DNA of 33,159 nt, taken from IMG/VR virus record IMGVR_UViG_3300036944_001154, positions 1-33,159 of that record; one strand, 5' to 3'. The DNA is from a virus. The notes beneath the pieces were generated by a model. That model was not told the DNA's origin. It was given only the letters and a program-made list of their open reading frames with translations, and did no database searches. The position numbers and the translations under genes were made by a program. This document shows positions 18,873-29,563 of this stretch, one piece after another; position 1 is the first letter of the stretch; every line of letters starts with the position of its first letter.

Positions 18873-18900
18873 CGTTTTGTCCTGGTGTCCCGTTTTCTGT

Positions 18901-18930
18901 TATAAGTCTTCTCGGTCCTCTCAGTCCTAT
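18901..18930 (+). repeat. Intergenic repeat, family B copy 1
   Basis: Degenerate copy of an AGTCC-type repeat (TATAAGTCTTCTCGGTCC...). It lies at the end of the minus-strand 72-aa gene and contributes its TAG stop (bases 18927-18929). Orientation is the same as in all other copies. Confidence 0.75.
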
Positions 18931-19145
18931 TGCTTCTGAGGAGCGAACGCGTCGTCCGCATGGATGAACATGTTTGCGTTGTAGCTCGGGACTCCGCCGT
19001 TGGTTGGAACTGGGATCACGCCGATGTTGCAGGTCTCAGCTCCAGGCGTCGTCTTCACCACGATCCCGGCAACCGCATTGCCCTGCCAATCCTTACCGAC
19101 CACTTGGTCGCCGATCTTTGCCTCACGGCCGTTTTGATAATGCAT
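18927..19145 (-). CDS. Small hypothetical beta-rich protein (72 aa)
   Basis: Frame from ATG 19145 to TAG at 18927; the stop lies inside repeat copy B1. The product is MHYQNGREAKIGDQVVGKDW..., with a short SH3-like start (KIGDQVVGKDWQGNAVAGIVV) and no signal or membrane segment. A small phage protein with this opening is known from several tailed phages but no function is established. The spacing on both sides (54 bases to the 50-aa gene, about 150 to the holin-like gene) is larger than elsewhere in the operon. Confidence 0.6.
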   Translation of the reverse strand: MHYQNGREAKIGDQVVGKDWQGNAVAGIVVKTTPGAETCNIGVIPVPTNGGVPSYNANMFIHADDAFAPQKQ

Positions 19146-19256
19146 GTTTTTGATTTCTGATAGAATCCCTTAAAATTCAGCGGCACGGGTCATGGGTGTG
19201 TCTCCTACGAGTTAACCTGCCCTCACTGGCCGCCTAAAAATCTTCCTCTTCTTCTT

Positions 19257-19291
19257 TCTGATCACTGCTCACTGCCCACTCGGCACTTCTG
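19257..19291 (+). repeat. Intergenic repeat, family C copy 1
   Basis: TCTGATCACTGCTCACT followed by GCCCACTCGGCAC. It ends two bases before the stop of the minus-strand holin-like gene. A nearby AAAATTCAGCGGC (19172-19184) recurs at 19866-19878. Confidence 0.75.
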
Positions 19292-19293
19292 CC

Positions 19294-19728
19294 TCACTTC
19301 TCCCTCACCACCCGCGCCTCAACCACCAGCCCGCCCTTCGAGGAATAACTCACCCTCGAATCCGGCGTCTCTACCCCCACCCGAATCGGCACCGCACGCA
19401 GCGCATCCATCTGCGCCGGAGAGCACGAGGGCAGCACTCCTACCAGTGCCGCCGTCGCTATCAATCCAACCCAAACGGGAAACCCGCTTGCCTTATTACC
19501 TAACTCACCAGCCCCCAGGCCGATGAGAGATCCGATCCAGCCCAGGGCCAGCCGGGCCAAGCCCGCCGCCACTGCGCCGATGATAATGATGAGAGGATCA
19601 ATCAGGTCCGCCCCGGCTTTGTCCACCGCCGCCACCTGATCAGGCGCGATGATTTGCCAGGATAAAAACAACCCGCCAAGCCCGGCGAGAAATGTCAGAA
19701 AATGACGAATTTGTGATGCGATGTTCAT
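19294..19728 (-). CDS. Holin-like membrane protein with C-terminal lipobox-like segment (144 aa)
   Basis: Three hydrophobic stretches are seen: about residues 10-27 (FLTFLAGLGGLFLSW), 45-65 (LIIIIGAVAAGLARLAL) and 84-100 (VWVGLIATAALVGVLP). The third ends PSCSP, so a Cys follows a lipobox-like ALVGVLPSC. A small soluble tail of about 40 residues follows. With the amidase two genes downstream, a holin or combined holin/spanin role is likely. That the Cys segment is a real lipid-attachment site is uncertain, because it is internal and preceded by other membrane helices. Confidence 0.6.
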   Translation of the reverse strand: MNIASQIRHFLTFLAGLGGLFLSWQIIAPDQVAAVDKAGADLIDPLIIIIGAVAAGLARLALGWIGSLIGLGAGELGNKASGFPVWVGLIATAALVGVLPSCSPAQMDALRAVPIRVGVETPDSRVSYSSKGGLVVEARVVREK

Positions 19729-19752
19729 GGCTAGCAGTATGTGTGTTTTCTT

Positions 19753-19797
19753 CTCTGATCACTGATCACTGCTCACTCGGCACTGACCACTGCCCAC
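19753..19797 (+). repeat. Intergenic repeat, family C copy 2
   Basis: CTCTGATCACTGATCACTG followed by CTCACTCGGCAC; it shares its core with copies at 19257 and 22137. It lies 24 bases upstream of the minus-strand holin-like start. It is one of several repeats in the 212-base gap 19729-19940. Confidence 0.75.
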
Positions 19798-19890
19798 ACC
19801 TAACCACACCTCCCGCGCATCGCCCCACACCTCCCACACCTCAAACACTTTACTTCGTCCCGCCCAAAAATTCAGCGGCTAGGCCACTCA

Positions 19891-19930
19891 TTCTTTCAGT
19901 GTTTCAGCATCTCAGCGTTTCAGCTTTTAC
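19891..19930 (+). repeat. Intergenic repeat, family A copy 1
   Basis: Repeats of TTTCAGCAT/CTCAGCGT ending CAGCTTTTACC. It lies ten bases beyond the stop of the minus-strand HTH gene. The copy points the same way as those at 22541 and 24231 although the neighbouring genes point the other way. The gap 19729-19940 also holds C2 and an ACACCTCC-rich stretch; no gene is seen there. Confidence 0.75.
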
Positions 19931-19940
19931 CTGAAAACTC

Positions 19941-20258
19941 CTAGAGCGCATCGCGTTCCGCCTTGTATCTCAACACAGACTCCGAATCAAGCCGCAGTGC
20001 CGCGTTGGATTTCTTACCATCTTTGCGCTTGAGCACCCGCGCACCCGGCTTGCGGCCTGCGATCAACCCCAGCCGGTAGAGATCAGTGACCGTCCACGGC
20101 TCCACTCCTAACACCTTGGCCGTTTGCTTCACGCTCATCTCACTCAGCGGCTTTCTCGCCACAAGTTCCATCCGCCCGTCACCGCATGGAACCAGCTCAG
20201 ACTTCCAAATAAGAGTCAGTTGCTCAGACCGTGCATGAGTCGTGCTGGAGGCTTGCAT
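19941..20258 (-). CDS. HTH DNA-binding protein, MerR/excisionase-like (105 aa)
   Basis: Residues about 39-75 fit a helix-turn-helix of the winged MerR/excisionase kind (LSEMSVKQTAKVLGVEPWTVTDLYRLGLIAG), followed by basic RVLKRKDGKK. It is the only clear regulator in the minus-strand late block and stands upstream of the lysis and packaging genes, so it could be the late-gene activator, the job done by Mor/C in Mu. That is inferred from position only. It could also be an excisionase-like accessory. The N-terminal 38 residues are unremarkable. Confidence 0.65.
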   Translation of the reverse strand: MQASSTTHARSEQLTLIWKSELVPCGDGRMELVARKPLSEMSVKQTAKVLGVEPWTVTDLYRLGLIAGRKPGARVLKRKDGKKSNAALRLDSESVLRYKAERDAL

Positions 20259-20285
20259 GACACTAGGGTATCACCCCATGGGCAA

Positions 20286-20310
20286 AATAAGTCCCATAGG
20301 CCCTCTCCGT
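20286..20310 (+). repeat. Intergenic repeat, family B copy 2 (degenerate)
   Basis: AATAAGTCCCATAGG then CCCTCTCC. It lies upstream of the minus-strand HTH gene start, in a short gap that also contains the near-palindrome CCCATGGG (20276-20283). Confidence 0.55.
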
Positions 20311-20318
20311 CGATGAGT

Positions 20319-20417
20319 TCATCCCCACAACCACATCACCGCACGCCAAACCGCCACAGCAGCCAAGATCAGAACAGCCATAATCACCATCCCAAAGATT
20401 TTGGAGTCAGAATACAT
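20319..20417 (-). CDS. Tiny membrane protein (32 aa)
   Basis: ATG 20417, TGA at 20319; the start lies just after the lipoprotein stop. Nearly all of it is one hydrophobic helix (IFGMVIMAVLILAAVAVW). Such mini-holins or antiholins occur next to spanin-like lipoproteins. Support is limited to the tight junction and the helix, so this is tentative. Confidence 0.45.
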   Translation of the reverse strand: MYSDSKIFGMVIMAVLILAAVAVWRAVMWLWG

Positions 20418-20421
20418 CGCA

Positions 20422-20745
20422 TTATTGCAGGTCTTCAATTTGTTTCTCTACATCAGCAAGCTCAGCATTAGCTGATCTCAAGTCTTCGACTGCTAACGCA
20501 ATCTCACCTTGGGTCTGAGCCATCTCAACTGCCAACCTGGCAGATTTCACAGTCCTCTTTGCCTCTGGCAGTGTGCAAACCATCAAAAAGCGTAATTTTT
20601 CATCCTTTCCTGCATTCTCTGCTATCTCTTGAATCGCCTCCTGTCGTATCAACGACTCCGTGCCTTTTTCTTTGCACCCGCCACAGAAAAGCAGCATTGC
20701 TATCAGCATCCATTTTATGAGGCTTTTTATTTTTCCTGATTCCAT
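20422..20745 (-). CDS. Lipoprotein with coiled coil (107 aa), spanin-like candidate
   Basis: A charged start is followed by a hydrophobic LIKWMLIAMLLFCGGC, where GGC with the preceding LLFC gives a lipobox (Cys near residue 24). The rest is a helical, heptad-rich segment ending DVEKQIEDL. An SD-like AAGGA precedes ATG 20745. The shape (short lipoprotein with coiled coil next to lysis genes) suits an outer-membrane spanin (Rz1/u-spanin). It is the first gene downstream of the minus-strand RHH, so it could also be an immunity or exclusion lipoprotein made in the lysogen. Confidence 0.65.
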   Translation of the reverse strand: MESGKIKSLIKWMLIAMLLFCGGCKEKGTESLIRQEAIQEIAENAGKDEKLRFLMVCTLPEAKRTVKSARLAVEMAQTQGEIALAVEDLRSANAELADVEKQIEDLQ

Positions 20746-20767
20746 GGTCCTTGGATCACTTTAGATT

Positions 20768-21028
20768 TCAAGCTCTCCGCTTCTTTCCCTCTTCGCAAAC
20801 CGTGGCCAGTGTTGCCTTCTTGGGCCGTCCTCCTTTGGCGTCGCCTAACCGGGGCGGCGCCGCTCGATAAGCCGCTGGAAGGTTCACGCCGTTTCGTGCC
20901 AGTTCCTTAAGAACCGCATCCCGGATGAATGATGCCCTATCGCTAAATCCAAAGCCTGGGTAAGCAGCGTCGATTTCGTCAACAAACCGCTCATCCATCA
21001 AAAGTAGAATCTGTCGTGTGGAAGGCAT
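20768..21028 (-). CDS. Ribbon-helix-helix protein (86 aa), divergent switch, left arm
   Basis: Sequence MPSTRQILLLMDERFVDEIDAAYPGFGFSDRASFIRDAVLKELARNG carries the RHH (CopG/Arc) pattern: a short beta ribbon (RQILLLMDE), then two helices with SFIRDAV. A basic tail follows (GGRPKKATL, KKRRA). RHH proteins bind DNA as dimers and usually repress their own promoters. It diverges from a second RHH gene at 21108 across a 23-bp palindrome. I infer it to be one of the two regulators of the early/late or lysis/lysogeny switch. Confidence 0.75.
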   Translation of the reverse strand: MPSTRQILLLMDERFVDEIDAAYPGFGFSDRASFIRDAVLKELARNGVNLPAAYRAAPPRLGDAKGGRPKKATLATVCEEGKKRRA

Positions 21029-21076
21029 TTGTTGGCTTTTAAGGTTTTTTTGCGGTCCCGGCTATTTTTTTATTGC

Positions 21077-21099
21077 CAATATATACCCGGTATATATTG
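21077..21099. promoter_or_regulatory. Perfect 23-bp palindrome, probable RHH operator with -10 element
   Basis: Arms of 11 bases (CAATATATACC and GGTATATATTG) around a single central C. It lies in the gap between the divergent RHH genes. A TATATT inside the right arm (21093-21098) would make a -10 box for the rightward gene, with transcription starting near ATG 21108, giving a leaderless or nearly leaderless message. No convincing -35 is seen at normal spacing. Confidence 0.8.
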
Positions 21100-21107
21100 T
21101 GTTTCCC

Positions 21108-21272
21108 ATGCCCGCCGCAAAAAGCAAGCCTCACCCAACCCTCAAGAAGGCCGTTCTCGTGGTCTTTCCCGCAGACGTGGTGGCCGCGTTGGATGCTATC
21201 GCGAAACGCGAAGACACCGACCGATCCAAGTTCATCCGCAAAGCCGTCCGCAACGCCATCCGAGGAATTTGA
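21108..21272 (+). CDS. Ribbon-helix-helix protein (54 aa), divergent switch, right arm
   Basis: Two upstream ATGs exist in frame or nearby, but 21108 (MPAAKSKPHPTLKKAVLVVF) leaves the palindrome outside the gene and starts a complete RHH domain: ribbon KKAVLVVFPADVV, helix AALDAIAKRED, turn TDRSKFIRKAVRNAI. At 54 residues it is close to the minimal RHH size. No SD is seen; the gene may be leaderless. It heads the early operon and precedes the 139-aa gene by four bases. Function inferred: repressor or activator acting at the palindrome. Confidence 0.75.
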   Translation: MPAAKSKPHPTLKKAVLVVFPADVVAALDAIAKREDTDRSKFIRKAVRNAIRGI

Positions 21273-21276
21273 ACCA

Positions 21277-21696
21277 ATGTCCACTCACGCTGAACTCTAC
21301 CTAGCTACCCGCGCAGCACTTCAAGCCGCTCAGCAAGCATACCGCCTTGCGCGACTAAACCTCCGCAAATGCGACCCCCATCAATTCCACCTAATGACAG
21401 TTGGTGAAACCGCCGCAAAAAATTTCCGGTCTCCATCCAGTCGCAGTGCTGCGTTGATTTCCCGCCGCGCCGCCATTGAGAAAACTGTGACTCTCAATTG
21501 GTCTCTAAAAGATCCCTTAGACCATGAAGCCAATTGGGAAGAGTGCTGTCGGATTGGAGACATTTTGCGCACCGCTGGCTTGTTTGCTCAGGGGTCAAGC
21601 GTTGCTCCAACCGTCCGCAATTGCGCCATAAGAAACGGCCTTATGAAGGAACGGGTGTATGCCTCAAGCGTATCCACCAACCCCAACCCCGCCTAA
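21277..21696 (+). CDS. Hypothetical early protein (139 aa)
   Basis: The ATG at 21277 has a good SD (GAGGAA ending ten bases upstream) and starts MSTHAELYLATRAALQAAQQ. The longer frame to 21073 overlaps the RHH gene and is rejected. The N-terminal 40 residues are helical; the rest is of mixed type with two Cys pairs spaced far apart. No family is recognised. It sits second in the early operon. Confidence 0.65.
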   Translation: MSTHAELYLATRAALQAAQQAYRLARLNLRKCDPHQFHLMTVGETAAKNFRSPSSRSAALISRRAAIEKTVTLNWSLKDPLDHEANWEECCRIGDILRTAGLFAQGSSVAPTVRNCAIRNGLMKERVYASSVSTNPNPA

Positions 21697-21704
21697 CACC
21701 TACC

Positions 21705-21995
21705 ATGCCAGACCCCCACGATAGCGATGACGACGACAAGCTGGCCGAGGCCATCGCCGACGCATGGGTCGAGCGCGCCGCCCACGATTCAAACCTTCGT
21801 CGCATCGCCCTCATCGCCGCCGGAAAACGGCAGTGGCCTGCCGACATGACCACCAGCGAGCTAGCCCGTCACCTCGGCACCAGTCGCCGCACAATCAGCC
21901 GCATCGAATCAGACGTCATCAAGCGTCTCCGCCTCGATCCCAAGACCCTCCGCATCCTCCGCGAAATCCACCCCACCAACCCGCCAACACCATGA
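21705..21995 (+). CDS. Small HTH protein, sigma-70 region 4-like (96 aa)
   Basis: An acidic N-terminus (DSDDDDK) is followed by a helix-turn-helix at about residues 46-80: DMTTSELARHLGTSRRTISRIESDVIKRLRL. The form (SELAxxLGxSRxTISRIExxxxxRLR) is that of region 4 of sigma factors and related small regulators. ATG 21705 follows the previous stop by eight bases, in a TACC context shared by many genes here; its TGA overlaps the next ATG. A transcriptional regulator is likely, target unknown. Confidence 0.7.
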   Translation: MPDPHDSDDDDKLAEAIADAWVERAAHDSNLRRIALIAAGKRQWPADMTTSELARHLGTSRRTISRIESDVIKRLRLDPKTLRILREIHPTNPPTP

Positions 21996-22156
21996 GCCCC
22001 ATCATCTTCACCCTCACGATCCTCGCGCCCCGCGTTGAGAACCTCACCGACTACGCCGCCGGTCTCCTCGTCATCCAGCGCAACCGCATCCCCCAAAACA
22101 TCTGGATCCACCCCCAAGATCACGCCGCCCTTCTCCCTCTGATCACTGCTAACTGA
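21992..22156 (+). CDS. Small hypothetical protein ending in a repeat (54 aa)
   Basis: Starts by ATGA overlap with the HTH gene. Product MSPIIFTLTILAPRVENLTDY... Its last residues, PLITAN and the stop, are encoded by the intergenic repeat copy C3, so the repeat supplies the gene's 3' end. The N-terminal FTLTILAP is too short for a secure membrane helix. No family is recognised. Confidence 0.55.
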   Translation: MSPIIFTLTILAPRVENLTDYAAGLLVIQRNRIPQNIWIHPQDHAALLPLITAN

Positions 22157-22170
22157 TCACTCGCCACCTC
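22137..22170 (+). repeat. Family C copy 3, providing a gene end
   Basis: CTCTGATCACTGCTAACTGA then TCACTCGCC. It matches copies 19257 and 19753 in core and orientation. The TGA within it is the stop of the 54-aa gene. Confidence 0.75.
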
Positions 22171-22189
22171 TTCCATCTCCACACCTACC

Positions 22190-22540
22190 ATGACAACCAA
22201 CCCCACCATCACCACCCGTCGCACCCTCATCGCAGCCCGCGCTCACAAACTCGGCCTCGGCTCGCTCTCCCTCATGTGCCTGCTCCACGAGCACGGCTCA
22301 GTCAAAATGGCCTTCGCCGCCCGCGAATGCTCCGTCTCATCCTCCAACCTAACAGGCCTTGCAGACACCCTGCACAGCCTCGGGTTTGCCATCAGCGAAA
22401 AGGAACCCCTCGACCGTCGCCAGGTCACGCTCTCACTCACCCCCCTCGGTTGCCTCGCCATCGAAGCCATCCTCGAAGGCCGCGCCGACAATCCACAATT
22501 CAACGCCCGCAAATCCCTCGGCCTAAGACTCACCCGCTAA
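22190..22540 (+). CDS. MarR-like winged-helix regulator (116 aa)
   Basis: The order SLSLMCLLHEHGSVKMAFAARECSVSSSNLTGLADTLHSLGF followed by EPLDRRQVTLSLTPLGCLA is the MarR recognition helix and beta wing (DRRxVxLxLTxxG). It lacks the long dimerisation helices of full-length MarR proteins, so it is short. It lies in the early operon with other small regulators; repressor or activator is inferred. The ATG is in a TACC context without SD. Confidence 0.75.
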   Translation: MTTNPTITTRRTLIAARAHKLGLGSLSLMCLLHEHGSVKMAFAARECSVSSSNLTGLADTLHSLGFAISEKEPLDRRQVTLSLTPLGCLAIEAILEGRADNPQFNARKSLGLRLTR

Positions 22541-22580
22541 CATTTCAGCATCTCAGCATTTCAGCATCTCAGCATTTACC
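22541..22580 (+). repeat. Intergenic repeat, family A copy 2
   Basis: CATTTCAGCATCTCAG twice, ending CATTTACC. It fills the gap between the MarR-like gene and the next ATG (three bases after TTTACC). Confidence 0.8.
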
Positions 22581-22583
22581 ACC

Positions 22584-22748
22584 ATGAACTCCATCCAACG
22601 CCGCGCTCACCTAGGCCTCGCCATTGAAGGCCCATTCTCCCGCAACCGTCGCACCGGCCTCATCCGCCGCATTGATGGCTGGCAGCTCCTCGCAGTCCTC
22701 ACCCTCTCAGCAGTCGTCACCATCCTGATCCTCGCCGTCTGCATCTAA
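22584..22748 (+). CDS. Small membrane protein (54 aa)
   Basis: ATG 22584 directly follows repeat A2. The N-terminal 30 residues are basic (PFSRNRRTGLIRRIDGW); the C-terminal 22 are one hydrophobic helix (LLAVLTLSAVVTILILAV). The topology is likely cytoplasmic N-terminus with a C-terminal anchor. No family is recognised. Missed by size limits but in-frame, neatly spaced and followed by 23 bases before the next gene. Confidence 0.6.
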   Translation: MNSIQRRAHLGLAIEGPFSRNRRTGLIRRIDGWQLLAVLTLSAVVTILILAVCI

Positions 22749-22771
22749 CGCCGACCTTCAGACCTTTTCCC

Positions 22772-23098
22772 ATGCTCTACCTCATCGACATCACCTGGAA
22801 CCGCCGCACCCCTGAAACCGACCGCCCTAAAACCGGAGTCGAAACCGTAGCCATGGCAGGCCGCTCGTTTACCGTCGCCAAAGGCAAGGCCGTTAGAAAA
22901 TTCAACCTTCATTTCGGAATGCATCTCGCAATCCAGAAGGTCACCGAAAAACAAGACCCCGCCCAGATCCACCAAGACGGATACAAGCGCATCGACTGCG
23001 GATCCGGTCAGCACTTCGGCATCTGCCGCAAATGCGGCAAAGGCCACGGCACCGTCCTCATGGAGCGCGGCGTCTTCTCCAAAGGAATTCCAGCATAA
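22772..23098 (+). CDS. Hypothetical protein with Cys/His cluster (108 aa)
   Basis: Starts MLYLIDITWNRRTPETDRPK. The C-terminal third reads KRIDCGSGQHFGICRKCGKGHG, with three Cys and two His that could bind one zinc ion, as in a zinc ribbon. The rest is mixed alpha/beta. No known family. It precedes repeat B3. Confidence 0.6.
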   Translation: MLYLIDITWNRRTPETDRPKTGVETVAMAGRSFTVAKGKAVRKFNLHFGMHLAIQKVTEKQDPAQIHQDGYKRIDCGSGQHFGICRKCGKGHGTVLMERGVFSKGIPA

Positions 23099-23099
23099 G

Positions 23100-23131
23100 C
23101 CCATAAGTCCTATCAGTCCTCTAAGTCCTAT
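23100..23131 (+). repeat. Intergenic repeat, family B copy 3
   Basis: CCATAAGTCCTATCAGTCCT then CTAAGTCCTAT, six bases before the ATG at 23138. It is the clearest copy of its family. Confidence 0.85.
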
Positions 23132-23137
23132 CTCTTT

Positions 23138-23998
23138 ATGTCCACCGAATCCCCACTCACCAAACGCGCCCGCGAACTCAGCCAAGGTAAACACAACCCA
23201 TCCGCTGAAGTCATCACCAAAGCCGAGTTCGCCGCCATGGTCCAAGACCTGCCGTCCCACAAAAACCGCCCCATCCCGCTCTCAACCGTCGAGATCGTCA
23301 CCGACGCCCAGGTGGACGCCGCCGAACTCCAAGGCCTGGCAGAAGCCATCACCCGCAGTCGCGAGATCATCGGCAAGCACGAGCAATCCTGCCACGAGAC
23401 CACCCTCGAACACTACCTCGAAGCAGGCCAGAAGCTTGCCCGCGCACAGGAGATTTTCACGCTCTCCACTCAAGACAAGATGGCCACAGCACGGCAGGGC
23501 AAGGCTCTGTTGTCCACGGTGGACAACAGAGACCAACCAGCCCCCCAAGACTCCCCCGAAGTCCTCGCCAACCGAGGATTCTCCGCCTGGCTCGCAGCTG
23601 CTCTCCCCGACCTCAAGCGCCCCACGGCCATCCGCTACGCCACAGCCTACCGCTCCCTGGAACTCCCTTTAGATGCCAAGCCCACCGAGATCCGAGCCAA
23701 GATCAAAACCCTTCGTCACGAGGCAACCAAGGCAAACCTCCCCATGCCCACCCTCGCCAGCGTCCTCAAAGCAGCACCCAAGCCACAGCCCCCAACGGAA
23801 TCTCTAGTCGTCCTCGTTCCCAAGTCTTCCAAACAGCTCAAGCTCGAAGACGCCCGCGAGATCTTCGACGGCTGGATGCAGACCTTCGACAAGGCCCTCA
23901 AGCGCGGCCAGCTCGACCACCTCGACCGCAAAGGCCTCATGAATCTCAACGACTTCGTCGCCACCGTCCGCGACCGCATCAACGCCAGACTCAAGTAA
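23138..23998 (+). CDS. Hypothetical early protein, helical, DUF3102-like middle (286 aa)
   Basis: A mainly helical protein. The middle, FSAWLAAALPDLKRPTAIRYATAYRSLEL followed by a long spacer, is of the type seen in DUF3102-like phage or plasmid proteins (LARAQEIF... at 105-130, then a second helical unit). The C-terminus ends with a helical VRDRINARLK. An association with DNA partitioning or replication is known for DUF3102, but the match is weak. It precedes the transposase by two genes. Confidence 0.55.
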   Translation: MSTESPLTKRARELSQGKHNPSAEVITKAEFAAMVQDLPSHKNRPIPLSTVEIVTDAQVDAAELQGLAEAITRSREIIGKHEQSCHETTLEHYLEAGQKLARAQEIFTLSTQDKMATARQGKALLSTVDNRDQPAPQDSPEVLANRGFSAWLAAALPDLKRPTAIRYATAYRSLELPLDAKPTEIRAKIKTLRHEATKANLPMPTLASVLKAAPKPQPPTESLVVLVPKSSKQLKLEDAREIFDGWMQTFDKALKRGQLDHLDRKGLMNLNDFVATVRDRINARLK

Positions 23999-24003
23999 CA
24001 GCC

Positions 24004-24216
24004 ATGGAAACCATCATCGGAAAAAGATTCAAGGCTGTGATCAATGGCAAAAAGTGCCTCAACGGCAAGCCCTATGGTTGCACCGTGTCAGGACAAATCC
24101 AGAGCGGCGATGGCACTGAAGATATCTACGAAGCCGTCGCTCAAATTGCCGAATCCCTTCGCTCAGAAAACCGCGAGATGGAGTATCCACACAGCATCCG
24201 AATCACCATCGAGTAA
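24004..24216 (+). CDS. Small hypothetical protein (70 aa)
   Basis: Frame METIIGKRFKAVINGKKCLNGKPYGC..., ATG 24004, TAA 24216. Mixed alpha/beta; the opening VINGKKCLNGKPYGC is beta-like. No family is recognised. Spacing of five bases to the previous gene and about 54 to the transposase, which includes repeat A3. Confidence 0.6.
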   Translation: METIIGKRFKAVINGKKCLNGKPYGCTVSGQIQSGDGTEDIYEAVAQIAESLRSENREMEYPHSIRITIE

Positions 24217-24230
24217 ACTCTTCCCTCTGA

Positions 24231-24267
24231 TTTCAGCTTTTCAGCCTTTCAGCTTTTCAGTTTTACC
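24231..24267 (+). repeat. Intergenic repeat, family A copy 3
   Basis: TTTCAGCTTTTCAGCC then TTTCAGCTTTTCAG, ending TTTTACC, three bases before the transposase ATG. It resembles copies at 19891 and 22541. Confidence 0.8.
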
Positions 24268-24270
24268 AAA

Positions 24271-26394
24271 ATGCAACTCACCCTCATCGACTACACCTCC
24301 CCCGAGTGGGAAAACCTATCGGCACCATTGCGCATCGAGATCCAAGATTGGCTCGAAGCTCTATACCCGCCCAAACAGTCAGGCGTCACCGCTTGGCTAA
24401 CCGAAGTCGGTGAGTCCATGGGGAAAAGCTACGCCACGGCCCGCCGCAATTACGACCTGCTGCTTGACTCTAACTGGAATTGGAAAGTGCTCTTGGATTT
24501 GCGCAAAACCGCCAAGGACTCAGTCATCCTCGACGGCACCGGCTCCCAAGTCTTCCGCGCCTACCTCGTCACCCTCGTCGGTCAATACAAACGCAAAAAC
24601 GCAGCCGCGTTCCGGCACCTCCGCCAAGACATCTGGCGCAAGCGCGAGGAAGTCATCCCAGGCTACGAAGGTTTTCCCGGCTGGCCTAAAATTCCCATGG
24701 GCTGGACCGATCGCAATCTGGCTCGCATCGTCAAAGCCGAAACCAATCGCGCCCGTTTCGCCTCGCTCCGGATCGGAACATCCAGCAAAACCAACAGCTA
24801 CCTGCCCACCGTCCACCTCACCCGCGTCGGACTCCAACACGGCCAAGTCATCCAGGTGGACGACGTTCGCCATGACAACTGGGTCACCCTTGGCAAGTCC
24901 GGCAAATACGTCCGCGTCAACGAACTCGGCGCACTCGACCTTCTATCCGGCAACCGTTTCCAGTGGGGATGCAAACCCCGCCGCCGTCGCTCGGATAAAA
25001 CCTACGAGGACATCAATGGCAGCGACATGCGCCTCTTCACCGCAGGCCTCTTCCATCGCTGGGGTTACTCTCCTCACGGCTGCATGATCATGAGCGAGCT
25101 CAACACCGCCAAGGTGGACGAGCGCATCGCCAAGATCCTCTATGACGTAAGCGGAGGACTCATCCGCGTCGAGTATCAGCCTATCGAGGGGAAACAAGCC
25201 GCACTAACAGGATTTTGGAACGGCACCGAGGGTGGGAACTTCCGCGCCAAGGCCTGCTTGGAATCCCTTCACAATCTCATCCACAACGACCTCGCCGCGC
25301 TCACCATGCAGACCGGCTCTCCCTCATCTGGCATCAAAGGCCCCGTCACCACGGACCGCATGATCGCCTACGCCGCTTCCATCATGCGCCAAGTCCTCAA
25401 AAAATGCCCGGATCGTGCCCACCTCCTGCGGCTTCCAGGCATCGACTATCACACCCAGTTCATTCCGTTCCTCATGGACTACTACCACCACGGCCTTGCC
25501 ATGCGCACAGACCACAACATGGAAGGATGGGAGCGACTCAACTATGTGGTCACCGAATACACCGCCCTCCCAGGATCAGACCATTGGCTCAGCCAGGCGG
25601 AATTTCTTCAGCTTCCGCAAGAGTCACAACTCATCATTGGAAACGCCGTTAAAAAAGACCCCCAGAACTGGTCAAAACGTCGCAACCTCTCACCCCTCGA
25701 AGTCTGGAACCAGCGCCCCAAGTTTCTCCCCATCCCGCCCGTGACCATCTGCGACATCATCGGCGAGGACATGGCCCGCGAAGTGACCGTTAGAAAAGGC
25801 TTTGCGGAATTTGAAGATCAGGAAATCTCGCCAGACGCCCTCATCTACACCGCACGCTTTGCCTCCGGCCCTAACCGTGGGCGCGAAATCCCCCACGGCG
25901 AGAAAATCAAACTCTTCGCCAATCCATTTGAAGACGGCAGCGCATTCGTCATGGACGCACGCGGCCATTACCTCGGACAGCTTCTTCTCTACAAAAGATT
26001 TTCTGCCGTCAACGCCGCTGCCTTCCACACCGACGCCCCCTTCGAAGAGCGCCCATCCCTCAAGAGCGAAGAGTTCATCCGCGCCACCGGCGAGAAGCGT
26101 GAACGCATCGCCACCATGCTCGAACCGGATCGCATCAATCACCGCGAAGAAGTCCAAGCCGCCAAAGACCTCCGCGAACACAACCGCAAGCTCATCAACG
26201 GCGACCCCATCACCCCCGAAGAGATCCACGACTCCCACGTTGCAGCAGGCCATCAAGCCCACCGCACCGCCGCCGCAAACCGCCTGCAAGCCCACGGCAA
26301 CCCCTTCGATTCCGCGCCCTATCAGCCCGACGAGGAAATCCGTTCCGCCTGGGACGAACTCCCCGATGACTCTCCTCTCCCTGACGCATTCTAA
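24271..26394 (+). CDS. Transposase A, MuA/rve type (707 aa)
   Basis: The RNase H-like (rve) core is recognised at residues about 190-335: Asp197 in VIQVDDVRHD as first acid, then Glu331 in KACLESLHNLI as last acid. The Asp-Asn motif of the second acid (DNG/DNT in relatives, Asp336 of MuA) appears as Glu276 in MIMSELNTAK. The spacing 276-331 (55) matches MuA (56). After it comes a beta-barrel C-terminal region (about 520-580), then a charged tail. The N-terminal 190 residues are probably helical end-binding domains. Catalyses DNA cleavage and strand transfer of the phage ends. It would use the ATPase next door as target selector. Confidence 0.9.
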   Translation: MQLTLIDYTSPEWENLSAPLRIEIQDWLEALYPPKQSGVTAWLTEVGESMGKSYATARRNYDLLLDSNWNWKVLLDLRKTAKDSVILDGTGSQVFRAYLVTLVGQYKRKNAAAFRHLRQDIWRKREEVIPGYEGFPGWPKIPMGWTDRNLARIVKAETNRARFASLRIGTSSKTNSYLPTVHLTRVGLQHGQVIQVDDVRHDNWVTLGKSGKYVRVNELGALDLLSGNRFQWGCKPRRRRSDKTYEDINGSDMRLFTAGLFHRWGYSPHGCMIMSELNTAKVDERIAKILYDVSGGLIRVEYQPIEGKQAALTGFWNGTEGGNFRAKACLESLHNLIHNDLAALTMQTGSPSSGIKGPVTTDRMIAYAASIMRQVLKKCPDRAHLLRLPGIDYHTQFIPFLMDYYHHGLAMRTDHNMEGWERLNYVVTEYTALPGSDHWLSQAEFLQLPQESQLIIGNAVKKDPQNWSKRRNLSPLEVWNQRPKFLPIPPVTICDIIGEDMAREVTVRKGFAEFEDQEISPDALIYTARFASGPNRGREIPHGEKIKLFANPFEDGSAFVMDARGHYLGQLLLYKRFSAVNAAAFHTDAPFEERPSLKSEEFIRATGEKRERIATMLEPDRINHREEVQAAKDLREHNRKLINGDPITPEEIHDSHVAAGHQAHRTAAANRLQAHGNPFDSAPYQPDEEIRSAWDELPDDSPLPDAF

Positions 26395-26420
26395 CCAAAC
26401 AATCCAACCAATCAACCACC

Positions 26421-27473
26421 ATGCTACCCACACCATCCACCCAACCAGAAACCGACTCCCAACGCTCCACCGGCAGCTACGGGATTGCCTCACACAATTT
26501 TGAGACCACCCTCGCAACCTATCCCGAGTCCGCGCATGAAATCCTCCGTTACTGGTTCTTCCTGGGCAAAGATCGCGATTGGTCTCTTGCCAAACTTCAA
26601 GAAGCCACTGGCGTCAGCACCACCACCCTCTCCCGCGTCTTCCGTGGCGTCTATGGTGCCGAAATCGAAAGCGTGATCGCCACCCTCGAACGCGCCCGCC
26701 TCACCTACGCCGAGAGCGTTGACAATCCCGATTTCATCGAGACCAGCCTCGCCCGCCGCCTCTTCGCTACCTTCGATAAAACCCGCGCCCTCGGCAACGT
26801 CTCCATCGTCTGGGGCAAGATGGGCATCGGCAAAACCGCCGTCGCCACCGAATACCAGCGCCTCAACAATCACGGCAAAACTCTCCTCGTCCGATTCCCC
26901 GCCGGTGCCACATTCGCCTTCTTCGTCGCCCACGTCGCCAAAGCCTGCGGCGTCGCCACCCGCTCCCAAAGCCAGCTCCAACAACGCCAGAAAATCTATC
27001 AAGTCCTCTCCGCTGGCAAGCGCCTCCTGATCGTCGATGAACTTCACCAGGCATTCCTAACAACCCGCAGCGACACCGCCGTCAAGTGCTGCGAGTTCCT
27101 CCGCGAGATAATAGACGTTTCCAACTGCGGCCTCGTCCTCATGGGAACCAAGCTTCTCCAAGAGTCAGTCTTTTCAGGCCCCCACAAAGATGCCCTCGCC
27201 CAACTCGTGGACCGTGGAACCGTCCAGATCCCACTCCCTGACAAAGCCACCAAGAGCGATGTCAAAGCATTCCTTGCAAACTACGGCCTTCAGTTCCCGC
27301 ACCCGGAAGATCCCGCCGCGCCCATCCTTAACGACATCCTCGTCAGCCACGGCCTGCGCAAACTCACCATGCACCTCCGCGACGGTGCCGCCTTCGCACG
27401 CAAGCGGCAAGAGCCCTACGACTGGTCACACTTCCTAGCCGCCTTCCAAGCCATCCAATCCCTCAGCAAATAA
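26421..27473 (+). CDS. MuB/TniB-like AAA+ ATPase (350 aa)
   Basis: An N-terminal HTH is seen (about residues 55-80: WSLAKLQEATGVSTTTLSRVFRG), as in MuB. Walker A is GKMGIGKTA (Lys138-Thr139), Walker B RLLIVDELH (Asp206-Glu207), with a further TKLLQES sensor-type motif. The HTH-plus-ATPase order defines MuB-like target-choice proteins. Spacing to the transposase is 26 bases. Known role in the family: polymerises on DNA and delivers target to the transposase and protects the own genome from insertion. I infer the same here. Confidence 0.9.
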   Translation: MLPTPSTQPETDSQRSTGSYGIASHNFETTLATYPESAHEILRYWFFLGKDRDWSLAKLQEATGVSTTTLSRVFRGVYGAEIESVIATLERARLTYAESVDNPDFIETSLARRLFATFDKTRALGNVSIVWGKMGIGKTAVATEYQRLNNHGKTLLVRFPAGATFAFFVAHVAKACGVATRSQSQLQQRQKIYQVLSAGKRLLIVDELHQAFLTTRSDTAVKCCEFLREIIDVSNCGLVLMGTKLLQESVFSGPHKDALAQLVDRGTVQIPLPDKATKSDVKAFLANYGLQFPHPEDPAAPILNDILVSHGLRKLTMHLRDGAAFARKRQEPYDWSHFLAAFQAIQSLSK

Positions 27474-27497
27474 CTCAACCTGTCACCTCAACCAACC

Positions 27498-28178
27498 ATG
27501 TCCTACCTCGCTCCCTGCCTCGCCGATCACCCGATCTATCAAAAACGATCCACCGCAATCCAAGACACCTGGCACATCCATCGCGGCACCGTCGCTCTCT
27601 ACATCGTCGGCCCCGGACCCACCGCCATGCACCGCGCCTCTGACTCCTACTATTTCGGAAAAATCGGCACCGACGAAGAATGGCAGATCGCCCGTCGCGC
27701 CCTCGGCATCCTCCGCCGCACCGCCACCGAAGACGCAGGCCCCGAAGAAATCAAAGCCGCCCTGGAAAAAGCCGCCGACCAAATTGCCAACGGCATCACC
27801 GACATCCGCGAAGACTCAGCCGAGCCATCGGATCCACAGCCTAACATCAAGCCGCAAGCCATCGCCACCCAGGAAGACGCCCGCCGCGTCCTCGCCGCCG
27901 TCGAGTTCGTCACCGGCATCCCTGCGCGTGACATGCACCTTCCCACCCGGAACGTTACCCAGTCCGAAAAAGCCCCCCGCGTCCGCGCAAAATCCCACGC
28001 CTGCCTAGCCCTCATGCACTTATTTCCAGGTAGCCGATACAACGACCTCGATGACCTGCTCGGTTTCGTCCGCGACACCACCAACCGCAGCCTGGTCCGC
28101 CACCGTGAATCCTACATCCGCGAGGCTAAATACGCCGCCAACCACGCCACCATTTTGGCCAAACTCTCCCCCGCATGA
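27498..28178 (+). CDS. Protein with DnaA domain IV-like C-terminus (226 aa)
   Basis: The first 110 residues are of unknown type. Residues about 130-215 resemble the DnaA C-terminal DNA-binding domain and relatives (VEFVTGIPARDMHLPTRNV, then ARVRAKSHACLALMHLF and a following DDLLGFVRDTTNRSLVRHRESY). In DnaA this part reads VxxxxxxxxxxLxxxxRxxxVxxARQxAMYLxR..., with a later GxxHSTVxxA motif, here altered. It may be a replication or regulatory protein recognising a DNA site. It lies just after the transposition genes and overlaps the next gene by ATGA. Confidence 0.5.
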   Translation: MSYLAPCLADHPIYQKRSTAIQDTWHIHRGTVALYIVGPGPTAMHRASDSYYFGKIGTDEEWQIARRALGILRRTATEDAGPEEIKAALEKAADQIANGITDIREDSAEPSDPQPNIKPQAIATQEDARRVLAAVEFVTGIPARDMHLPTRNVTQSEKAPRVRAKSHACLALMHLFPGSRYNDLDDLLGFVRDTTNRSLVRHRESYIREAKYAANHATILAKLSPA

Positions 28179-28444
28179 GCACCCTCACACCCATCGCCCG
28201 CGAGACCCTCGGCCTCGCCGTCCTTAGAGACATCCGCGTCGGTCAATCCAGCGCCGATTGGATTGCCCGCCGCGTAAAAATCAACGCCACCACCGCCACC
28301 GAAATCCTAACCGATCTCGTCGCCGCCGGACACGCCGAAACCGACACCATCTCCGACACCATCTCCGACACCATCTCCGACACCATCTCCGACACCATCA
28401 CCGTCTATAAAATCACCACTCAAGGCCTTACCGTCATTTCCTAA
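28175..28444 (+). CDS. Winged-helix protein with 12-bp tandem-repeat insert (89 aa)
   Basis: An N-terminal winged helix-turn-helix (SADWIARRVKINATTATEILTDLVAAGHAE) is followed by five tandem DTIS/DTIT units (from about residue 57) and a final YKITTQGLTVIS. The repeat separates the recognition-helix part from a final strand, so it probably lengthens the wing. The ATG overlaps the previous stop. It probably binds DNA. Repeat number may vary between strains, changing the wing length by four residues a time. Confidence 0.6.
   Translation: MSTLTPIARETLGLAVLRDIRVGQSSADWIARRVKINATTATEILTDLVAAGHAETDTISDTISDTISDTISDTITVYKITTQGLTVIS
28343..28402 (+). repeat. Tandem 12-bp repeat, five units, in-frame
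   Basis: GACACCATCTCC four times exactly (28343-28390), then GACACCATCACC once. Each unit is four codons, so changes in copy number keep the frame. Confidence 0.95.
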
Positions 28445-28445
28445 C

Positions 28446-28754
28446 ATGCCCACCCCCGACCTACAAACTCCCCGCCTTGTCAGCGCACCTCGCGAGCAAT
28501 ATCTTCGGAAGGAAGAGACCCGCATCCGCAGCGCCGCCATCGCCATGCTCGCAGCAGGCCCGTCCCCCGACATCCGCTCCGCTTTCGATGCCGTCCTCCA
28601 TGCCGAGGATCTCTACGACATCCACGATGTCACCGCCACCTTCTACGGCCAGCGCGGACAATCCTCAAAAAACATCACCCACACCCGCTACGCCACCCAA
28701 GCCATGCAGCTCAAACTCCGGTCATTAGACCAGCTCTCTTTCCTAGTTCTTTGA
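28446..28754 (+). CDS. Hypothetical early protein (102 aa)
   Basis: Frame begins one base after the previous TAA (TAA-C-ATG). Product MPTPDLQTPRLVSAPREQYL... is helical in the middle (RIRSAAIAMLAAGPS) with no recognised motif. An overlapping gene frame at 28751 (TTG) would start inside its end; I prefer the ATG at 28775 for the next gene. Confidence 0.6.
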   Translation: MPTPDLQTPRLVSAPREQYLRKEETRIRSAAIAMLAAGPSPDIRSAFDAVLHAEDLYDIHDVTATFYGQRGQSSKNITHTRYATQAMQLKLRSLDQLSFLVL

Positions 28755-28774
28755 ACCAAAACACACACACCACA

Positions 28775-29026
28775 ATGTCCAAAAAAAGCACATCCCACGA
28801 AGCCGCCCAACGCAAAGTCTGGCAGTCCGAACTCCACCTCCTCGCCAAGAACGAAAAAGCCGTCGTCCGAGATTTCAAACAGGCCCGCGCCCCACTGGAA
28901 AAAGCCGCCAAACTCGCCGCCAAAAAACTCGCTGCGTTCGAGGCCCGCAGCAATCGCCAACTCCCTCGCACCCTCAAGGCCATCGAGCGCCGGCGCGGCA
29001 TCCTCAACGGCAAACTCGGCCTCTAA
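28775..29026 (+). CDS. Small basic helical protein (83 aa)
   Basis: ATG 28775 (MSKKSTSHEAAQRKVWQSEL) is preferred to a TTG 24 bases upstream. The protein is Lys/Arg/Ala-rich and mainly coiled-coil or DNA-binding type (KAAKLAAKKLAAFEARSN). No family. It precedes repeat B4. Confidence 0.55.
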   Translation: MSKKSTSHEAAQRKVWQSELHLLAKNEKAVVRDFKQARAPLEKAAKLAAKKLAAFEARSNRQLPRTLKAIERRRGILNGKLGL

Positions 29027-29030
29027 TCCA

Positions 29031-29060
29031 TCAGTCCCATCAGTCCTCTAACTCCTATCC
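29031..29060 (+). repeat. Intergenic repeat, family B copy 4
   Basis: TCAGTCCCATCAGTCC then TCTAACTCCTATCC, two bases before the ATG at 29063. It matches B3 closely. Confidence 0.8.
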
Positions 29061-29062
29061 AA

Positions 29063-29563
29063 ATGACTCCCCAACAAATCGCCGCCGATGTTGACCGCCT
29101 CATCGTCATCAAGGCTCAAATCGCAACCCTAACCCTCGAAGCAAAAGCCATCGAATCCCGGCTCGAAAACGCAGCCCTCCACGGCGAACAAATCCCGCTC
29201 CAGGACACGCAGCGCGAAGGCAAACAATTCATCGCCCGGGGCACCTCATTCTCCGTCCCCGTCCGCTTCGAAGCAGACAACCTCATCAGCACCTTCAAGC
29301 ACGACTCCGAGCTTCACCGCTACCTCAAAACCATGCTCGGAGACGCCTTCTCCAAGTTTTTCAAAGAGGTTCACGCCTACGAGCGAAAACACAAAGACGA
29401 CGCCAACAAATTCCGCAAATTCTGCCGTAAGGAATTGGAGCCAGACGCCTACGCCACATTGATCAAAGCGCTCCTCTCCAAAGACAAAGACGGTATCCCA
29501 AAAAGCAAGACCGTTATTGCCCTCGCCGACGCCAAACCCCTCACTCAAATCGCCACCTCTTAA
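29063..29563 (+). CDS. Hypothetical protein (166 aa), coiled-coil start
   Basis: The N-terminus MTPQQIAADVDRLIVIKAQIATL... is coiled coil; a middle FEADNLISTFKHDSELHRYL follows, then basic YERKHKDDANKFRKFCRKEL. I compared it with Mu Gam (a dsDNA-end binding protein, usual here) and see no convincing match. It may still play that role; the position in the early operon would allow it. No recognised motif. Confidence 0.6.
   Translation: MTPQQIAADVDRLIVIKAQIATLTLEAKAIESRLENAALHGEQIPLQDTQREGKQFIARGTSFSVPVRFEADNLISTFKHDSELHRYLKTMLGDAFSKFFKEVHAYERKHKDDANKFRKFCRKELEPDAYATLIKALLSKDKDGIPKSKTVIALADAKPLTQIATS

Follow-up and report, generated by a model that had tools for sequence, protein, structure and literature searches.

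Filamentous cyanobacteria have STRR repeats, short tandem repeats between genes that form several families in a genome and the words of which differ from those considered here. Three array families, A, B and C, are described in the following from a Mu-like phage contig, the IMG/VR virus record IMGVR_UViG_3300036944_001154, the whole 33,159 bases of which are referred to as the window, and from related phages and Verrucomicrobiota genomes. The closest known system is that of the TAACTGA heptamer direct repeats of Beggiatoaceae, Cyanobacteria and Bacteroidetes (MacGregor 2015, PMC4679880). These are short tandem intergenic heptamers, organized in sets that are split by related 7-mers, often located just 5' of a start codon and taxonomically scattered. 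A leader role for RNA-binding proteins has been proposed for them, and a same-orientation subset in Microcystis was noted by the author and left open in 2015 (PMC4679880).

The arrays of the window share these general features and belong to the same broad, known kind of intergenic heptamer direct repeats, which modifies the reading of the initial annotation. Tandem units of 7 nt that are mainly intergenic are found in family C, whereas the period is 8 in A and 9 in B, and the word TAACTGA itself is not among the window words. Further differences are the other words, a fixed C block of 36-40 bp and an orientation that was tested against strand skew. The repeats of Beggiatoaceae are mostly forward to the nearby start codon, unlike the arrays examined here, and the hosts are Verrucomicrobiota and their Mu-like phages, whereas neither 'Verrucomicrobi' nor 'phage' occurs in the available text of PMC4679880. 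Four exact array words were not found in a text search of 5.39 million papers, and titles and abstract beginnings contained no recognisable report of the A, B or C families in Verrucomicrobiota, with subscription papers mostly outside the coverage of both searches. Two other systems are comparable in part. REP/REPIN sequences with their RAYT transposases (PMC3116915) are likewise short, dispersed intergenic blocks copied around the genome, but the present arrays have neither a palindrome nor an adjacent Y1 gene. Similarly, an orientation bias relative to replication is expected from the single-strand transposition of IS200/IS605 elements (PMC6006769), whereas no gene, ends or subterminal hairpins were found in the arrays.

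Both for this group of phages and for the Verrucomicrobiota family that includes genome G198, the orientation of the arrays follows the C-rich strand and not the direction of the genes. Family A is built of the 7-mer TTTCAGC and one free base (period 8), family B of AGTCCTATN (period 9) and family C of CACTNNN (period 7), all of them as short tandem arrays between genes, and the words of the window are TTTCAGC, AGTCCTAT and CTGATCA. Mismatch-tolerant searches yielded 9, 7 and 4 matches for A, B and C, respectively, compared with 0.58, 0.18 and 0.03 expected from 100 dinucleotide shuffles of the window per family, none of which reached the observed number. The three families are present where the initial annotation had placed them. 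All of these matches lie on the plus strand. The genes, which were predicted with our own codon-usage-based script without Prodigal, point left up to about 21 kb, including those at 18.1-20.3 kb, and mostly right beyond, which makes the earlier claim of one absolute orientation correct. The rule also holds for related phages and on the chromosomes of hosts, the orientation there following the C-rich strand. The asymmetry of the two strands is very strong and constant along the window (1-33159) irrespective of gene direction, each of the 22 bins (1.5 kb) having a C-rich plus strand with a negative GC skew. Read in gene sense, third codon positions have a skew of -0.58 in the right-pointing and +0.32 in the left-pointing genes, and these opposite signs indicate that the asymmetry is a property of the strand and not of the genes. 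Since the plus strand is C-rich whatever the gene direction, the arrays run along the C-rich strand.

Outside the window, the third-codon-position skew of the called genes was the measure for the six G198-family genomes, the later viral contigs, the pooled arrays and the permuted words, and whole-sequence skew for the phage contigs L043-L089. Of 43 copies of C with its fixed tail CACTCGGCACT in these six genomes, 38 are on the C-rich strand, 3 on the G-rich strand and 2 in flat regions, and the same copies comprise 11 that are sense and 16 that are antisense to both neighbours. Viral contigs that were fetched after the rule had been formed contained 19 intergenic copies (16 C-rich, 2 G-rich and 1 flat; 6 sense and 13 antisense), 7 of 26 matches having been dropped as they fall within coding sequence, most of them a single sequence common to several contigs. 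When all intergenic arrays are pooled, with weak-skew genomes included and arrays within called genes dropped, 76 C-type arrays are on the C-rich and 7 on the G-rich strand (n=84; 47 vs 6 per locus), and the corresponding numbers for A are 88 and 23 (n=118; 50 vs 4 per locus). B contributed three usable copies to this set, all from phages and all on the C-rich strand. With respect to genes, 51 A arrays are sense and 46 antisense, and in gaps with a G-rich sense strand 23 are antisense and 1 is sense. Furthermore, the A arrays of G111, a complete genome, are almost all on the plus strand at 1.09-3.64 Mb and on the minus strand at 4.08-5.37 Mb, the switch between 3.64 and 4.08 Mb taking place together with that of the skew, and a manual reading assigns 20 of the 23 to the C-rich strand.

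The dependence on the strength of the skew differs between the families. C-type arrays are distributed 68 vs 2 at |skew| >= 0.15 and 8 vs 6 below this value, whereas A arrays are distributed 69 vs 18 and 24 vs 7 on the two sides of the same cut, with no step. In G198, array loci tend to be in regions of stronger skew than 15 background stretches. A strong polarity, which for the C-type arrays is seen at strong and not at weak skew, might be expected of polar recognition sites under selection that are read by a DNA-tracking or fork-direction-reading protein, polarised oligomers of which KOPS are an example. Unlike a conserved recognition motif, however, the words vary among close relatives and each has few copies in any one genome, and many Verrucomicrobiota genomes are devoid of them; this explanation is very improbable.

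The polarity could also simply mirror composition, if the arrays were ordinary slippage microsatellites in neutral spacers on a C-rich strand. In line with this, the periods are 7-9, the number of units varies, the words are richer in C than in G and the spacers are C-rich. Among the long simple repeats of most bacterial genomes examined to date, moreover, heptamers are the most frequent (introduction of PMC4679880). Permuted words of equal composition, however, have strand counts of 443:338, 645:517 and 113:63, whereas the real words reach 62:9, 35:7 and 65:9, which corresponds to a polarity of 1.2-1.8:1 against 5-7:1. The shape of the units is also hard to reconcile with slippage alone, which would produce neither a unit of seven fixed bases and a free one nor a dispersed block of 36-40 bp with a fixed tail and sharp edges. 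From one A unit to the next, every base of TTTCAGC is conserved in 91% of units or more, a count slightly biased towards the seven fixed bases by the required 5/7 match between neighbours, and the eighth base varies freely (T 514, A 414, G 287, C 187). In the genomes sampled for the C tail, at loci chosen for C, so that the counts do not represent a genome-wide density, the distance from CACT to CACT is exactly 7 in 173 cases, and other spacings occur mostly 2-15 times apart from 14, which represents two units. Three successive CACT words are separated by N3 in 97 cases, compared with 8 cases of N4 and no more than 1 at other spacings. The alignment of 68 non-redundant C copies (3 of 71 were removed as near-duplicates and coding-type matches had been excluded beforehand) revealed about 36-40 conserved bases with sharp edges and near-background conservation outside; copies at unrelated loci have the block, the edges and the tail in common. 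Slippage as the sole explanation is rather unlikely.

The position of the arrays relative to genes has its own regularities. Only 2 of 56 C-type arrays are located inside called genes, and the 3' side of the arrays is close to a gene edge, the median distance of antisense copies to the stop codon being 8, 2.5 and 5 bases in three sets. Distances such as -5, -13 and -21 mean that the stop codon of the gene is within the array. TGA is contained in the reverse strand of A and in both strands of C, and with periods of 8 and 7 it falls in all three frames. In the window, the A array at 19894-19931 (8-bp TTTCAG.. units, end TTTTACC) is antisense to left-pointing genes on both sides and adjoins the stop of 19941-20258, whereas the A arrays at 22541-22580 (end TTTACC) and 24231-24267 (end TTTTACC) are located 3 bases 5' of the ATG at 22584 and of the transposase ATG at 24271, respectively, so that TTTACC is the shared end of all three. 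Among the arrays of family B (9-bp units), the one at 18900-18931 overlaps a stop codon, that of gene 18927-19145, which points left, and those at 23101-23132 and 29028-29059 end 5 bases before the ATG at 23138 and 3 bases before the ATG at 29063. The C arrays (7-bp units) at 19258-19287, adjoining the stop of the left-pointing gene 19294-19728, and at 19755-19792, between left-pointing genes, have the tail CACTCGGCACT, and the third, at 22139-22168 with CACTCGCCACC, provides the TGA stop of the open reading frame 21992-22156 and is located 5' of the gene at 22190. All of these are on the plus strand. Of the ten copies listed by the initial annotation, one, a B copy at 20286, is weak and degenerate (one plus-strand match with 3 mismatches in 18 at 20289-20306). 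An additional word family, CCCACACCT with period 9, is found at 19800-19850 between C and A arrays, and the matching gap of phages L394 and L398 holds similar CACACCTCC words.

The proximity of several arrays to an ATG, which had been given as two to six bases, applies to the four A and B copies just named and does not apply to the C copies. This placement would suit translation leaders, that is 5'-leader sites for S1, cold-shock-type or other RNA-binding proteins that replace the Shine-Dalgarno sequence. No Shine-Dalgarno-like motif precedes any of the 17 right-pointing window genes, the A and B sense leaders fold weakly, as do the array sense strands in general with the exception of one C copy, and C-type arrays in L043-L089 are sense in 59 and antisense in 32 cases. 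The A and B leader folds are, however, weaker than those of shuffles by about 1 standard deviation at most (z 0.1 to 1.2), the copies that the window has at 18.9-19.9 kb run antisense to the adjacent genes and other words or none precede the same genes in related phages. Since about half of the copies, according to the counts given above for the C tail and A, are antisense to their flanking genes, a leader function proposed as a general explanation is not supported and is improbable. Intrinsic terminators, with a GC-rich hairpin and a T run, were also considered and rejected, as the earlier statement on terminators had it: none of 9 terminator-like sites in the window is on an array, where shuffles led to an expectation of 12.8. 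No Rfam family matched the window at gathering score.

Short tandem word arrays are common to Mu-like phages and, in the case of A and C, Verrucomicrobiota chromosomes. Two units of A occur in 58 of 288 Verrucomicrobiota genomes (9 for a reversed-pattern control, manual count), and three units in at least 114 stretches of genome contigs, many of which are labelled Verrucomicrobia and others not. C is present in 12 of the 288 genomes (control 1), and with the tail in 11 of 60 G198-family genomes (control 1). The tailed pattern also occurs in 24 viral stretches, among them several relatives of this Mu-like phage. By contrast, the exact B pattern was counted manually in 8 of the 288 genomes and its reversed control in 15, hence a wide host occurrence of B is not demonstrated and this family is known from phages. 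The expectation that the families recur elsewhere more often than random sequence would predict is thus borne out for A and C and not for B in hosts. Related ACTGATA units are found in L043-L089 and in genome G182. L043-L089 are phage contigs of another lineage, several with near-identical flanks in common, in which the spacers are full of ACTGNNN heptads and words such as TTTTGCC, and some leaders are Shine-Dalgarno-like. In a region of genome G020 (L266; C11, ~13-20 kb), A arrays are densely packed on both strands and accompanied by other repeats, CGTCCTC and TTTTCTCTTCAGC, as well as by a recurring 'GGACGCCG..GCCCTACC' stretch. A second composite word, CTGAAAACTGAACACTGAAAACTAGCAAACT, is present in L302-L345, L224 and L398, in host and phage, often close to the C block.

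At fixed gaps between related phages the words turn over or are exchanged. A comparison of copy positions, as had been suggested, revealed different words or none in homologous gaps. L224, the transposase of which is 83% identical, has other words in such gaps, for example repeated TTCTCAC and CTGAAAACTGAACA, and the L398 gap that precedes the gene at 29063 has no B array, both flanks being 87-90% identical. The 3' end of gene 19941-20258 is accompanied by A in the window, by C in L394 and by no array in L398. In addition, contigs L082 and L044 have different words in one gap, yet their flanks are 96-99% identical.

The arrays could also be REP-like or IS200/IS605-like miniature elements that a Y1 transposase moves into the lagging-strand template. 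Lagging-strand targeting is known for IS200/IS605 (PMC6006769), and a Y1 gene (E < 1e-17) was detected in 11 of the 12 genomes with arrays, as against 2 of the 10 remaining ones, but these 22 genomes were hand-chosen with kinship and genome size uncontrolled, so that the link in presence is confounded. Within 1.5 kb of 20 Y1 loci there is no A or C array, and no REP-type palindrome was recognized; among the 25 longest inverted-repeat pairs of the window none spans an array, the only palindrome being the 6-bp TGATCA within C. Movement by Y1 transposases is consequently extremely improbable.

Polarity, independence of gene sense and turnover are not all three accounted for by leader function, by slippage alone or by Y1-driven movement. 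The C-rich-strand polarity suggests that the arrays are laid down or maintained in step with DNA copying and not with gene reading, and a replication-linked, strand-specific copying of words into gene gaps is the reading that we tentatively propose, giving it a little less than an even chance. Existing word blocks would be copied strand-specifically into gaps during DNA replication, possibly by copying or annealing onto the single-stranded template behind the fork, and would thus generate new arrays, the units of which may then be gained and lost. Selection would remove copies within genes, which could explain why the arrays abut start and stop codons and often provide the stop codon. A Mu-like phage copied in one constant direction would then keep a single polarity genome-wide, as in the window. 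We infer both that the skew reflects the direction of replication and that the words are copied in during replication.

Several observations weigh against replication-linked copying. In two genomes with weak, patchy skew, C-type arrays are distributed 4 vs 1 (G270) and 1 vs 3 (G273). The A arrays of G020 are distributed just 13 vs 8. The C-type arrays of L043-L089 have the excess of sense copies given above, with every skew class present, and family A in G111 is mostly sense to the next gene. The positions of dnaA and rRNA are not at clear skew switches, and no rRNA was found in G111; the leading strand is not set by these positions, an estimate from gene direction was disregarded as biased by codon preference, and the link to replication rests on the skew. 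Moreover, no insertion event, enzyme, donor or clean target duplication was seen, and Y1 (REP/IS200-type) transposase genes had flanking arrays at 0 of 20 loci.

As for the remaining content of the window, it encodes a Mu-type transposition module (24271-27473), a major head protein, portal and terminase proteins and an endolysin. The module comprises, both on the plus strand, the transposase-like gene at 24271-26394 (PHROG 310), to which the comparison with L224 refers, and a MuB-like DNA transposition protein at 26421-27473 (PHROG 296). A relative of the transposase is present in 33 of 288 Verrucomicrobiota genomes, the best match among which is only about 33% identical, and no host of the phage in the window was found. 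The gene 28175-28444 contains, at 28341-28403, an in-frame repeat of 12 bp (CCGACACCATCT) in five copies.

To conclude, there is no agreement on how the short intergenic heptamer arrays described in scattered bacteria arise, but the question of their origin has now become testable. The new element is that polarity was measured against strand skew in both phages and hosts and was separated from gene direction and from composition, with the caution that an array before a start codon need not be regulatory. It is conceivable, if rather unlikely, that these are very small mobile word arrays without an obvious transposase, which keep one orientation relative to the fork, spread through chromosomes and Mu-like phages and exchange words at fixed gaps, and which phages may ferry between hosts.

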